39,182 nt of DNA. Origin: Rikenella microfusus. Its GTDB lineage: Bacteria > Bacteroidota > Bacteroidia > Bacteroidales > DYQK01. Below, one piece after another: positions 1 to 33,139 of the stretch (positions within the stretch are counted from its first letter, which is position 1; each line of letters starts with the position of its first letter). The stretch is taken from NCBI GenBank assembly GCA_020719385.1, contig DYQK01000016.1:1-39182 (forward strand). Direction: 5' to 3'. A model generated the notes under the pieces. The model made no database searches, had not been told where the DNA came from, and was given only the letters and a program-made list of their open reading frames with translations. Position numbers and translations under genes: made by a program.

Positions 1-3000
1 GACGAGGTGAATATTTCGAAGAAAGATTCTACACAACAAATTCCGACAATTATTTTTGCTTCGCCGAATGTGCCTTCGCAAAATGTTCATCAAGGAACGG
101 CAAATCATTTGTTATACCGTTTAAATTTGTCTGTCAATGATTATTCAACGGTTTTAACCGATTTAACATTTAACACTTCGGGCAATTATTCCGCTTCTGA
201 TGTTACGAATTTGAAACTTTGGTTCTCGCAAGACTCAATTTTAAACATCAACGATGCACAAATTTATTCTACAACGGCGACAAACGTTGGAAATCATTTT
301 GCAACGGCGTTAAATTTGCCGCTTGAAGCAAATTCTACGTATTATTTCTTTGTTACCGCAGACATTTCTGCCAATGCAACCGTTGGAAATTCTATTTTTG
401 TACCGACAATTTCGCCTACTAATGTTACGTTTAATGCAGGAATTAAGTTAGGAATCACCGTTGACGGCGGTTTACAAACTTTTATTCCATCGAATGACAG
501 GACTTCGAATGCGAATGCAACGGGAATTTCGCAACCTGCAAGCACTTCGATTCCGTCAACAAATAATTCGGCAACAGAAAAAGTTGAAATTTTCAAATTT
601 AAAATCACTGACGAAGGTTCAGGAGACGGACTTTCGACTAACGTTTCGCAAATTACTTTGAAAAAAGGTAATCAAAACAATTTTGACTTCACAAATCTCG
701 GAGGAATTTCTCTTACTGACGAAAATAATCAAATTATTTCTGTTGAAAATACAATTTTCAACGCCGATTCTATTATTTTTGTTTTAAATAATTCCTTAAC
801 GGTGGCAGATAATTCTTCGAAAATTATTTCTGTTTCGATTTGGTTGAACAATCAAGTTGTTGATAATCAAATTATTCAGTTAAAAATTTCTGCTTCGAAT
901 CACGGTTTTGTAGCAAATTCTAATGGTTCAATGTTTGCGAATAATTTTGCGAATGAAATTATTTCGAATTTGTTTACAACGCAAGTGCTTGCTTCGAAAT
1001 TTACTTTTGTTCAACAACCGTCGAATGTTTTTGTGAATTCTGTGATGAATCCAGCAGTTGTTTTGCGAACTGAGGATGAAAATGGAAATCTCGATGTTGA
1101 TTTTAACGAAGGTGTAAAAGTTTCGAATCCGAATTTAAACGGTAATCCTTTGATTATCAACGCAATAAACGGAATTATTACGTTTAACAATTTGCAATTC
1201 CACACTGCCGCAACGCAGACGCAATTAACGATTCAAAAAGCGTCAGATAATTTATGGACCATTTTGAGTTCGCCGTTTAATATTTTTGCAATTCCTGTTT
1301 CGAGTTTGTTTATTTCGGAATATGTTGAAGGTTCGGCACAAAATAAGGCTCTTGAAATTTATAACGGCACAGGAAATCCTGTTGATTTGTCGATTTATTC
1401 GTTGAAATTGGCAGAAAACGGAGGAATTTGGACAGAAACTTTAAATTTGTCAGGAACATTATTGAATAATGACGTTTATATAGTTTCGAATTCGCAAGCC
1501 GATTCGGCAAATATTGCGTTGATTCGCGATACTTTCTCGACAATTTGCGATTTTACAGGAAATGATATTGTGGGACTTTTCAGAAATGACTCGTTAATTG
1601 ATGTTATCGGTGAATATTTAACGAATCCTACAAACGGTTTTTCAGTTGCAGGAATTGCGAATGCCACAAAAGACCATACAATTTTGCGAAAATATCCGCA
1701 AATAATTGGAGGAAATACAAATTGGACTCTTTCGGCAGGCACAGACACGGCAAATTCTGAATGGAAAGTGTTACCGCAAAATGAGTTTAACTTTTTTGGG
1801 TGGCACGGCGATTCGACAACGTTAAATCACGATGCAACTTTGCGAAGTTTAACTTCAGATAACGGAACTTTGACTCCAAATTTTGCACCAGAAATTACAA
1901 ATTACACAGTAAGATTGCCTCACGGCACAACGCAATTGCCACATTTAACGGCAGTTAAGAATTTTGCGAAAGCGAACAAACGTACTTTTAACGCAACAAC
2001 TTTTGCAGAAAAAACGCAAATAATTGTTACTGCACAAGATTGTCGCACTCGAAAAGTGTATGAAATTACGTATTTTGTTGAGCCAAGCACTGATGCAACT
2101 TTGAAATCTTTGTCTGTTGATTCAGGAAGTTTAACTCCAAATTTCAACGCAAATATTTTCGAATACGTTGTTGATGTACCTTTTGGTGCGAATGTTCCGA
2201 CAGTTTTTGCTGAAGCAAACGATTCTGATGCAACTTTAAACATTTCTCAAGCAGCAACCTTGAGAGATACTGCGAAAATCACCGTTACTGCACAAGCAGG
2301 AAATACGTTGATTTACAAAGTTTCGTTCAATGAAGCAGAACCTTCAAATGATGCAACTTTGAAAATGTTGACCGTTAGCGAAGGAATTTTGAATTTTGAA
2401 CCTTCAATTCTTGATTACGTTGTGAAACTTCCTTACGGAACGACCAATGTTCCTGTGATTTCTTTCGAGAAAAATGATTCTAATGCGACAACAAATTTTG
2501 TAAACGCAAATTCTTTGTCAGATACGGCAAAAATCGAAGTTACCGCACAAGACGGCACAACGAAATTAACTTATAAAGTTTCTTTCGAAGTGGATTCTGT
2601 GATTTCTCACGATGCAACTTTGAAATCTTTGTCTGCGAATTTGGGAATTTTAAAACCCGATTTCAACGCAAATATTTTCGAATATGTTGTTCGTTTGCCT
2701 TTTGGCACGGTCAATATTCCTGAAATTTCTTTCGAGAAAAATGATTCTAACGCAACAGCGAATTTTGTAAACGCAAATTCTCTTGAAGATACGGCAAAAA
2801 TCGAAGTTACCGCACAAGACGGCACAACGAAATTAACGTATAAAATTTCTTTCGAAGTGAATATTAAACCAGGAATTGTTGTTTTTGGAACATTACCTGA
2901 AGAAATTTTTGTTGGAGATTCAGTAACGATTTTTGCAGGCATTTCTGAAGACCAAGAGGTGAATGTTAAACTTCTTTGGGGGAAGAATCCTGACATTTTG

Positions 3001-3969
3001 ACAGATACCTTGCCAATGACTTTTGTTGGAACAAATACGTATGAAGCGTATGTTGCTCCGCAAATGATTGAGGGAACGGTTTATTATCGCATTGTTGCTG
3101 TAGATAACGAAGGCGAGGAGACAACAAAAGATAGCAGTTATTTTGTTCACGGGATTATTGATACGGTGAAAATTTTCGAAATTCAGTATTCTTTGACAGG
3201 AAATTCACCTTACGAGTTTAAAAAAGTTGTTACGCAAGGCACTGTTACCGTTCAATTCGCAGGAATGGGTTATGTTATTCAAGATTCGGCAAAACTTTGG
3301 AACGGAATTTTAGTTTATGATACGGTAAATACTCCGTCTCGATGGGATAAAATTCAATTACAAGGTAAAGTTGTTGAACTTTTAGGAATGACCATTTTAA
3401 TGGAGATTGAAAATTATAATGTTCTCTCACAAAACGATACGATTCCTTCAATAAAAATTTCTGCAAGCGAGATGAACGAGTCTGTTGAGGGCGTTTTACT
3501 TAAGACCGATACGATTACTTGCGTTGCAACGCATGATTCTTATCTCAATTCGTTGTATATTCGCAACGAATCTGATACCGATTCTTTGTGTATAAATTCT
3601 ACGTTGGCTCAAGAATTTACTCCTGAATTGCAAAAACGATATTGGTTTGTCGGTGTTGGAATTTATGATACGAAGTTTAAACTTTCGATTCGCGATGCAA
3701 ATGATGTTCATTCTGTTAGTGTTTCGGATTTTGAAGTTTCAAAAATTTTGATTTATCCGAATCCTGCTATTGATGTGTTAAATCTTGATAATTTAGAGAA
3801 TGTTGTTGAGATGAAATTGCTTTCTTTGACAGGACAAACACTTTCGCAAACAAAAATTTCGACAAAGCATTTTGTTTTACCTGTTTCTCAATTAAAGAGT
3901 GGAATTTATTTTATTCTTTTGCGAGGAAAAGATGGACAAGTGAAACTTGAAAAATTTGTGAAAAATTAA
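1..3969 (+). CDS. T9SS-secreted cadherin-like repeat / lamin-tail domain protein (5' end missing)
   Basis: The frame is open through base 1, so the visible 1322 codons are the C-terminal part of a larger gene; the GTG at base 7 is probably internal. Numbering residues from that GTG, beta-rich segments come first, then a lamin-tail-like domain at about 430-540 (LFISEYVEGSAQNKALEIYN). Four cadherin-like beta-sandwich repeats start near 608, 695, 781 and 868, each opening with (H/T/N)DATLK/R-L. A T9SS type A sorting domain occupies the last ~75 residues (IYPNPAIDVLNL, then SGIYFILL). The family is exported by a Sec signal (here off the edge) and anchored or released at the cell surface by T9SS. 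Function is inferred to be adhesion or surface architecture; no catalytic motif was seen. Repeats 3 and 4 are almost identical in DNA over 132 bases. Confidence 0.9.
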   Translation, partial: DEVNISKKDSTQQIPTIIFASPNVPSQNVHQGTANHLLYRLNLSVNDYSTVLTDLTFNTSGNYSASDVTNLKLWFSQDSILNINDAQIYSTTATNVGNHFATALNLPLEANSTYYFFVTADISANATVGNSIFVPTISPTNVTFNAGIKLGITVDGGLQTFIPSNDRTSNANATGISQPASTSIPSTNNSATEKVEIFKFKITDEGSGDGLSTNVSQITLKKGNQNNFDFTNLGGISLTDENNQIISVENTIFNADSIIFVLNNSLTVADNSSKIISVSIWLNNQVVDNQIIQLKISASNHGFVANSNGSMFANNFANEIISNLFTTQVLASKFTFVQQPSNVFVNSVMNPAVVLRTEDENGNLDVDFNEGVKVSNPNLNGNPLIINAINGIITFNNLQFHTAATQTQLTIQKASDNLWTILSSPFNIFAIPVSSLFISEYVEGSAQNKALEIYNGTGNPVDLSIYSLKLAENGGIWTETLNLSGTLLNNDVYIVSNSQADSANIALIRDTFSTICDFTGNDIVGLFRNDSLIDVIGEYLTNPTNGFSVAGIANATKDHTILRKYPQIIGGNTNWTLSAGTDTANSEWKVLPQNEFNFFGWHGDSTTLNHDATLRSLTSDNGTLTPNFAPEITNYTVRLPHGTTQLPHLTAVKNFAKANKRTFNATTFAEKTQIIVTAQDCRTRKVYEITYFVEPSTDATLKSLSVDSGSLTPNFNANIFEYVVDVPFGANVPTVFAEANDSDATLNISQAATLRDTAKITVTAQAGNTLIYKVSFNEAEPSNDATLKMLTVSEGILNFEPSILDYVVKLPYGTTNVPVISFEKNDSNATTNFVNANSLSDTAKIEVTAQDGTTKLTYKVSFEVDSVISHDATLKSLSANLGILKPDFNANIFEYVVRLPFGTVNIPEISFEKNDSNATANFVNANSLEDTAKIEVTAQDGTTKLTYKISFEVNIKPGIVVFGTLPEEIFVGDSVTIFAGISEDQEVNVKLLWGKNPDILTDTLPMTFVGTNTYEAYVAPQMIEGTVYYRIVAVDNEGEETTKDSSYFVHGIIDTVKIFEIQYSLTGNSPYEFKKVVTQGTVTVQFAGMGYVIQDSAKLWNGILVYDTVNTPSRWDKIQLQGKVVELLGMTILMEIENYNVLSQNDTIPSIKISASEMNESVEGVLLKTDTITCVATHDSYLNSLYIRNESDTDSLCINSTLAQEFTPELQKRYWFVGVGIYDTKFKLSIRDANDVHSVSVSDFEVSKILIYPNPAIDVLNLDNLENVVEMKLLSLTGQTLSQTKISTKHFVLPVSQLKSGIYFILLRGKDGQVKLEKFVKN
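2461..2592 (+). repeat. Copy 1 of a 132-base near-identical repeat in the adhesin gene
   Basis: This block encodes the C-terminal half of cadherin-like repeat 3. It aligns without gaps to 2728-2859, 267 bases (89 codons) downstream, with only scattered substitutions, some of them silent. Confidence 0.85.
2728..2859 (+). repeat. Copy 2 of a 132-base near-identical repeat in the adhesin gene
   Basis: This block encodes the C-terminal half of cadherin-like repeat 4 and matches 2461-2592. The N-terminal half of repeat 4 instead resembles repeat 2 (around 2090-2200), which points to recombination between repeats. Confidence 0.85.
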
Positions 3970-31548: not shown

Positions 31549-32775
31549 TTATTGATTCGCTCGTTTTTTTCCCAAAAGTAACTCTTTCATATTTCCGTTT
31601 ACTTCGAAACTGACAATAAAAAGATATGGAGCAAGAAATAATATTCCGCCAACAGTTGCTATGATTCCCAAAAGAATTCCTTTTGTCGAAAAGTGATTTC
31701 GCCAAGCAACCCATAATCCTGTAATCATCAAAAAGCACATAAAATCTAAGTCAAATTGTCCTGCCCAATTCATTGCCGTTATGTCGTTAAAGAAAATCGA
31801 AAATAAATTCCATCCGTGATTATTTCCTGCAATAATTGTGTAAACTAACTCCATCGCAAATACGGCAACCAAAAAAACTCGAAACACTTTCATATTTTTC
31901 CTTTCTGTATTAAAAAATTCATAAATTGAAATGTGCGGCAAAAATACAACAGGTTTTTCGCTTTTGACTTGTAAATTTTCGACATTTTTCAATTCCTGTT
32001 TAAAATTTTCGAAAGTTTGTCCGCTATATTTCTTAAAATCCCTTGAAAAATGGGCATAATCATAATAACCGAAATCCCACAGTTTATCTAAATTGAGAGA
32101 TTTATTTACCGTTACATACTCTAAGATTTTCTGAAATCTGACAAGAGACAACATTGTTTTTGGAGAAACACCTGTGTATTTTGCGAAATGTCGCTCTAAG
32201 GTGCGATGCGAAACGTTAAAAGTATTCAATAAATCGTCAATAGAATTAGTCGAAAAATAATTTGCTGCCAAATATTTCACTGCGTTAATGTTATCTGAAA
32301 CTTGTTTTTCCTCGGATAATTTCATTTTTTTCAAAAAATATTGTTCAGCAATCAATGCTTTCTCGGTTAAAAAATTTACAGAATTTATTTTTTCCAACAA
32401 TTCATTGACATCGGTGTTAAAAATTTCGCTAATTTCAATAATATTTCCTGAAAAAAGGTGCAACGGAATTCCTGTAATAAAATATAAAAAACTTGGTTTA
32501 ATTTTTGCCCCCAAAATTTCACTTTCCGAGTCAAGTTTGATGTTAAATTTTATCGGCGACAAAGCAACGGGTTCGATGAACGATTTTTTTGTGTTTAATT
32601 TTTGATTTTGAGAAATAAATTCTAAGGAATGATTAAAATTAAACAAAATATAGGCGAATGGCTGTGCCGAGACATTGACTTGAAACATTCCATTTCCTTT
32701 GAAAAGCACAAAATATTCCACCCAATTATTCAAAAATTTGGGTTTACAAGAGTGAAACGACAATTCTTTTTCCAT
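31549..32775 (-). CDS. AraC-family regulator fused to a C-terminal membrane domain
   Basis: This 408-residue protein joins two parts. Residues 1-294 look like a complete AraC regulator: a beta-rich N-terminal sensing domain (LNNWVEYFVLFKGNG, typical of the DUF6597-like group) and a double helix-turn-helix at about 170-270 (NVSHRTLERHFAKYTGVSPK, then LWDFGYYDYAHFSRDFKKYSG). Residues 295-408 form a separate-looking membrane protein with three hydrophobic helices (VFRVFLVAVFAMELVYTI, FMCFLMITGLWVAW, ILLGIIATVGGILFLAPYLF). The junction contains an internal ATG at 31893 preceded by AGAAAGGAAAAAT, which resembles a start site. Either the fusion anchors the regulator at the membrane, or the membrane part is also made separately. 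No TAnnTTTG box was found upstream. Confidence 0.82.
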   Translation of the reverse strand: MEKELSFHSCKPKFLNNWVEYFVLFKGNGMFQVNVSAQPFAYILFNFNHSLEFISQNQKLNTKKSFIEPVALSPIKFNIKLDSESEILGAKIKPSFLYFITGIPLHLFSGNIIEISEIFNTDVNELLEKINSVNFLTEKALIAEQYFLKKMKLSEEKQVSDNINAVKYLAANYFSTNSIDDLLNTFNVSHRTLERHFAKYTGVSPKTMLSLVRFQKILEYVTVNKSLNLDKLWDFGYYDYAHFSRDFKKYSGQTFENFKQELKNVENLQVKSEKPVVFLPHISIYEFFNTERKNMKVFRVFLVAVFAMELVYTIIAGNNHGWNLFSIFFNDITAMNWAGQFDLDFMCFLMITGLWVAWRNHFSTKGILLGIIATVGGILFLAPYLFIVSFEVNGNMKELLLGKKRANQ

Positions 32776-32842: not shown

Positions 32843-33139
32843 TCAAGACAAAATCGACTTACTGACCAAAATTTCAAAGTATGCAGGCAACCAAAAATCT
32901 TCCATCCATTCCTTCATTGCTGGAGTTGCTCCTTTAAACTCCCGCATATCAGCGATATAACCTTTTACAGAAAATTTTTCAGACATCTCAAGAAATTTAT
33001 TTTTGAAATGAATTATCTCATCGTCTTCTGTAAAATCGTTGTATTGCTCCAAAACGAAATTTCCATCAGGAAAATACTGCAATTTGACATAACTTGTCTC
33101 AAAATGCGTTTCTGCGTCAATAATTTGTGGTGTTTCCAT
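32843..33139 (-). CDS. Short STAS/SpoIIAA-like protein
   Basis: This 98-residue cytosolic protein has the pattern of a Bacteroidota SpoIIAA/STAS-like family, known to me by pattern rather than by name: a beta strand with an aromatic-acidic turn (YFPDGNFVLEQYNDF), a helix, then GYIADMREFKGATPAMKEWMEDFWLP, where related proteins have '(W/Y)-L-A-D-x-R ... Q-x-W-x-x-x-x-W-x-P'. Relatives I recall run to about 125-140 residues, so the C-terminal strand-helix unit may be missing here. Other frames after the stop gave no obvious continuation. The gene has a clear promoter and diverges from the small membrane protein gene. Function unknown. Confidence 0.6.
   Translation of the reverse strand: METPQIIDAETHFETSYVKLQYFPDGNFVLEQYNDFTEDDEIIHFKNKFLEMSEKFSVKGYIADMREFKGATPAMKEWMEDFWLPAYFEILVSKSILS

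Follow-up and report, generated by a model that had tools for sequence, protein, structure and literature searches.

An AraC-family regulator joined in frame to a small three-helix membrane protein in Rikenella microfusus, a likely lineage-specific gene fusion

The window, by which we mean the whole 39,182-nucleotide stretch of Rikenella microfusus DNA that was analysed, contains a real, uninterrupted frame of 408 codons that runs from an AraC-family regulator into a small three-helix membrane protein (the tail; Table 1). We consider it likely that the frame is a derived, lineage-specific in-frame fusion of the two, since relatives of the tail all stand alone and relatives of the regulator end before or within the linker that separates the parts. 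The fusion is probably recent and confined to a single genome or lineage, and the case is built on one genome, assembled in 288 contigs with no match to 16S, that is the sole family member among the genomes searched.

Table 1. Features of the fused frame and loci of the TetR-linked set.
Feature	Position	Strand	Basis
Fused ORF, 408 aa, ATG start	31549..32775	(-)	Continuous open frame
AraC-family regulator part, residues 1-262	31990..32775	(-)	Pfam and where AraC relatives end
Linker, residues 263-294, T6 run at 31912-31917	31894..31989	(-)	AraC C-terminal remnant and/or ex-intergenic DNA
Three-helix membrane protein, 114 aa from own ATG	31549..31893	(-)	Stand-alone in 25/25 relatives found
TATTTTTGC, match to Bacteroidetes -7 promoter element (TAnnTTTG)	31938..31946	(-)	Motif per PMC6847099
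Loci of the TetR-linked set: L032, L039, L040, L044, L045, L047, L048, L068, L069, L071-L074, L076

An AraC regulator in frame with a three-helix membrane protein was already proposed in the first-pass annotation, and the unbroken 408-aa ORF, the Pfam match to HTH_18 and the three modelled helices all bear this out. HTH_18 matched residues 184-260 with 46.8 bits (cut-off 33.6, E 3.8e-12) and HTH_AraC was matched with 30.3 bits (cut-off 26.6, E 4.5e-7), placing the AraC-type helix-turn-helix (HTH) of the protein among AraC/XylS regulators above curated cut-offs, while a DUF6597-like match at residues 13-112 was weak (19.7 bits, below the cut-off of 27; E 9e-4). Relatives of this part within the same phylum showed just 21-37% identity, and the plasmid collection yielded distant matches only. 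Since these AraC relatives normally end at query residue 254-290, i.e., before or within the linker, the earlier description of residues 1-294 as a complete AraC regulator was right about the regulator (residues ~1-262) but overstated its extent, residues ~263-294 being linker.

Two other features of the window were noted. Just upstream of the AraC gene lies a 98-aa ORF (32843-33139, minus strand) that matches three longer paralogues of the same genome (L065, L066, and L067; 142-151 aa) and aligns to them through its first 83-89 residues and no further, lacking their final ~50. No remnant of the missing residues was found in the window, and from its sequence the ORF is apparently a copy that was truncated near 32.88-32.89 kb, adjoining the AraC start. 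The large gene at 1-3969 carries internal repeats of ~500 bp (70% identical, at 2091-2862), and its product closes with a sorting tail for type IX secretion (TIGR04183, above cut-off).

An AlphaFold2 model of the tail, built from a seven-row alignment (pLDDT 76.9), showed long helices at residues 2-26, 44-65, and 70-99 and a short helix at 30-40; a model of the full 408 residues from the single sequence was uninformative (pLDDT 38). Stand-alone relatives were 33-57% identical across the tail, which resembles them over its whole length, including the residues invariant among 17 sequences (W43, Q46, D50, F51, L55, W61, W64, R65, G83, Y90, G100, and G108). Searches of the tail against Pfam, NCBIfam, PADLOC, PDB sequences, and PDB folds gave no significant match. 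DUF2834 (PF11196) was considered as an identity for the tail and rejected, with no match at E<=1 in the 17-sequence alignment and none in the genome itself, tail included. Counts of K/R in the tail (two at the N-terminus, none in loop 1, two in loop 2) favour an N-terminus inside; its K/R-rich C-terminus fits an end on the outside poorly and is ambiguous. With the tail's N-terminus inside, the AraC part would face the cytoplasm, so that a tethered regulator is topologically possible.

Relatives of the tail were sought in ~1,100 genomes together with genome_contigs and plasmids, the whole genomes searched numbering 393 for the order, 395 for the phylum, and 395 for the class, with partial overlap. 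These gave 25 relatives: 18 in same-phylum genomes, all of them other genomes, from the order, phylum, and class searches, six in proteobacterial MAGs from the genome_contigs scan, and one on a Vibrio pelagius plasmid from the plasmid collection. The full protein and the tail profile had no match in viral_contigs; there was likewise none in phage records, and none to the locus at the DNA level among plasmids. All 25 relatives are stand-alone proteins of about 110-147 aa rather than the long protein, and none, whether from order, phylum, or class genomes, genome_contigs, or plasmids, is fused. Conservation spans the entire tail, start included, and in the alignment the relatives' starts coincide with the internal ATG at 31893 or differ from it by a few residues, a clear start not being evident in the retrieved DNA of one locus (L036, which is adjoined by an EamA gene). 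This alignment of N-termini upholds the idea that the internal ATG was the start of a formerly separate gene. The proposal that loss of a stop fused two neighbouring genes fared less evenly: the tail is an old gene that was once independent, to judge from its relatives, but in none of those found does a separate AraC gene lie beside it. Therefore, the step from two neighbours is inferred from the joint and not from a relative, and the direct ancestor of the fusion is unproven.

The neighbourhoods of these relatives were also compared. Of the 18 same-phylum loci, 14 have a same-strand TetR-like gene upstream (TetR_N scoring at or near cut-off in most loci scanned and some calls resting on alignment only), and in nine of those 14 a 140-aa membrane protein lies between it and the tail homologue. 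There is thus a recurrent same-phylum set of a TetR-like regulator, often the 140-aa membrane protein, and then the small three-helix protein, both membrane proteins being without a Pfam family above cut-off. In Vibrio and in one alphaproteobacterium (L041:2113-3360; L034:2129-3342) the tail homologue is adjoined by a divergently encoded regulator that carries an MmyB-like ligand domain; the Vibrio regulators were ruled out as kin of the AraC part. In the tree, the window's tail falls into a nine-member, mainly proteobacterial clade (support 100/98), apart from the TetR-linked clade, and just one same-phylum genome (G595) groups with it and the proteobacterial set. Since the tail groups in this way, it may plausibly have arrived by transfer, and the TetR-linked set is not its direct ancestor; the idea that AraC took the place of the usual TetR was dropped because the tail sits outside that clade. 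A search of the genome itself, run without a positive control, found no TetR of the tail-linked kind. An unnamed family of small membrane proteins is thus found repeatedly beside unrelated types of regulator, namely TetR, XRE with an MmyB-like domain and, here, AraC.

At the joint, ~32 codons of linker are open, and since 30-34 codons would stay open with a chance of 0.14-0.18 at the local intergenic composition, the open linker alone is not striking; what is striking in the sequence is that the joint coincides precisely with the point where a stand-alone family begins. One T added to the T6 run creates a TAA that ends the AraC frame after residue 288, one T removed creates a TGA overlapping the internal ATG, and 13 of the 32 linker codons are one substitution away from a stop. 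A single event, whether real or a sequencing error, could therefore explain the joint. If it was an error, an assembly or sequencing indel in or near the T6 run would conceal what are truly two genes, an araC with its own stop and a 114-aa gene close behind or overlapping it. That one T more or less parts the frames at a natural place speaks for this, as does the separate state of the tail in all its relatives; however, the window's 22 long frames, 35 kb in all, contain 176 homopolymer runs of at least six bases and are nowhere interrupted (a partly circular check, as those frames were picked as open ones), so the assembly is not visibly indel-prone, and we regard such an error as unlikely. 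Less probable still is a long-standing, functional fusion, whereby an undersampled lineage would possess an AraC receptor integrated into the membrane, its membrane part acting as the sensor and its AraC part giving the response. The topology permits such a receptor, both halves look intact, and relatives of the tail tend to adjoin regulators, but a second fusion is absent from all searched genomes of the order, class, and phylum.

A nearly even contender is that the two parts function as two genes, the tail being made from its own ATG, perhaps from its own promoter, with the 408-aa read-through neutral or of minor importance. This account overlaps with a lineage-specific fusion and differs from it only in which product matters. 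The internal ATG and the AGAAAGGAAAAAT before it are both present, but the earlier reading of the latter as Shine-Dalgarno (SD)-like is a weak argument, as Bacteroidetes are without SD sequences and instead favour A at -3, -6, -12, and -13 (PMC6847099). Since A stands at -3, -6, and -13 relative to the internal ATG, internal initiation there is plausible, and this A-rich context argues for a separate tail gene, together with the whole-length conservation of the tail and the close packing, seen in many relatives, of regulator, membrane genes, and tail. So does TATTTTTGC, whose first base lies 53 nt before the internal ATG and which would occur by chance in a 70-nt stretch at ~2%. TAnnTTTG elements precede several genes and, with the TIGR04183 sorting tail, suggest a Bacteroidota genome. 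Against two working genes, no -33 element is in place to partner TATTTTTGC, which is thus a weak candidate for an internal promoter, and openness of the RNA near the internal ATG is unremarkable (z 0.46).

In the lineage-specific fusion that we prefer, an AraC one-component regulator would have lain just upstream of a small three-helix protein of the unnamed, often regulator-adjacent family, and its stop would have been lost, whether through a substitution or because the T6 run changed by one base, joining the frames. The 408-aa protein would then be made with its AraC part in the cytoplasm and its tail in the inner membrane, i.e., as a membrane-tethered regulator, while the internal ATG probably still yields some free 114-aa protein. 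Whether the product works as a membrane-tethered AraC, with an N-terminal DNA-binding half, a C-terminal three-helix domain of an undescribed family and perhaps the free internal-start product besides, is doubtful, and any function for the predicted tethering is a guess. If real, it would show, in a natural case, how the loss of a single stop codon may turn a soluble regulator into a membrane-bound one.

The protein has the domain order and HTH of AraC one-component regulators in which a DUF6597-like N-terminal domain precedes HTH_18, its own N-terminal match to DUF6597 being below the cut-off, but whereas relatives of its AraC part end soon after the HTH (mostly 240-330 aa), it runs on into a membrane domain. 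The stand-alone three-helix proteins (110-147 aa) are always encoded by their own gene, whereas the tail is continuous with the AraC frame. Membrane-integrated one-component regulators of the ToxR/CadC type consist of a winged-helix DNA-binding domain, a single transmembrane helix, and a periplasmic part. By analogy only, the protein resembles them in that its N-terminal half would bind DNA in the cytoplasm and a membrane part comes after it; however, it had no match to the winged-helix (OmpR-type) family in Pfam, and it combines an AraC HTH with a three-helix domain and lacks a periplasmic domain.
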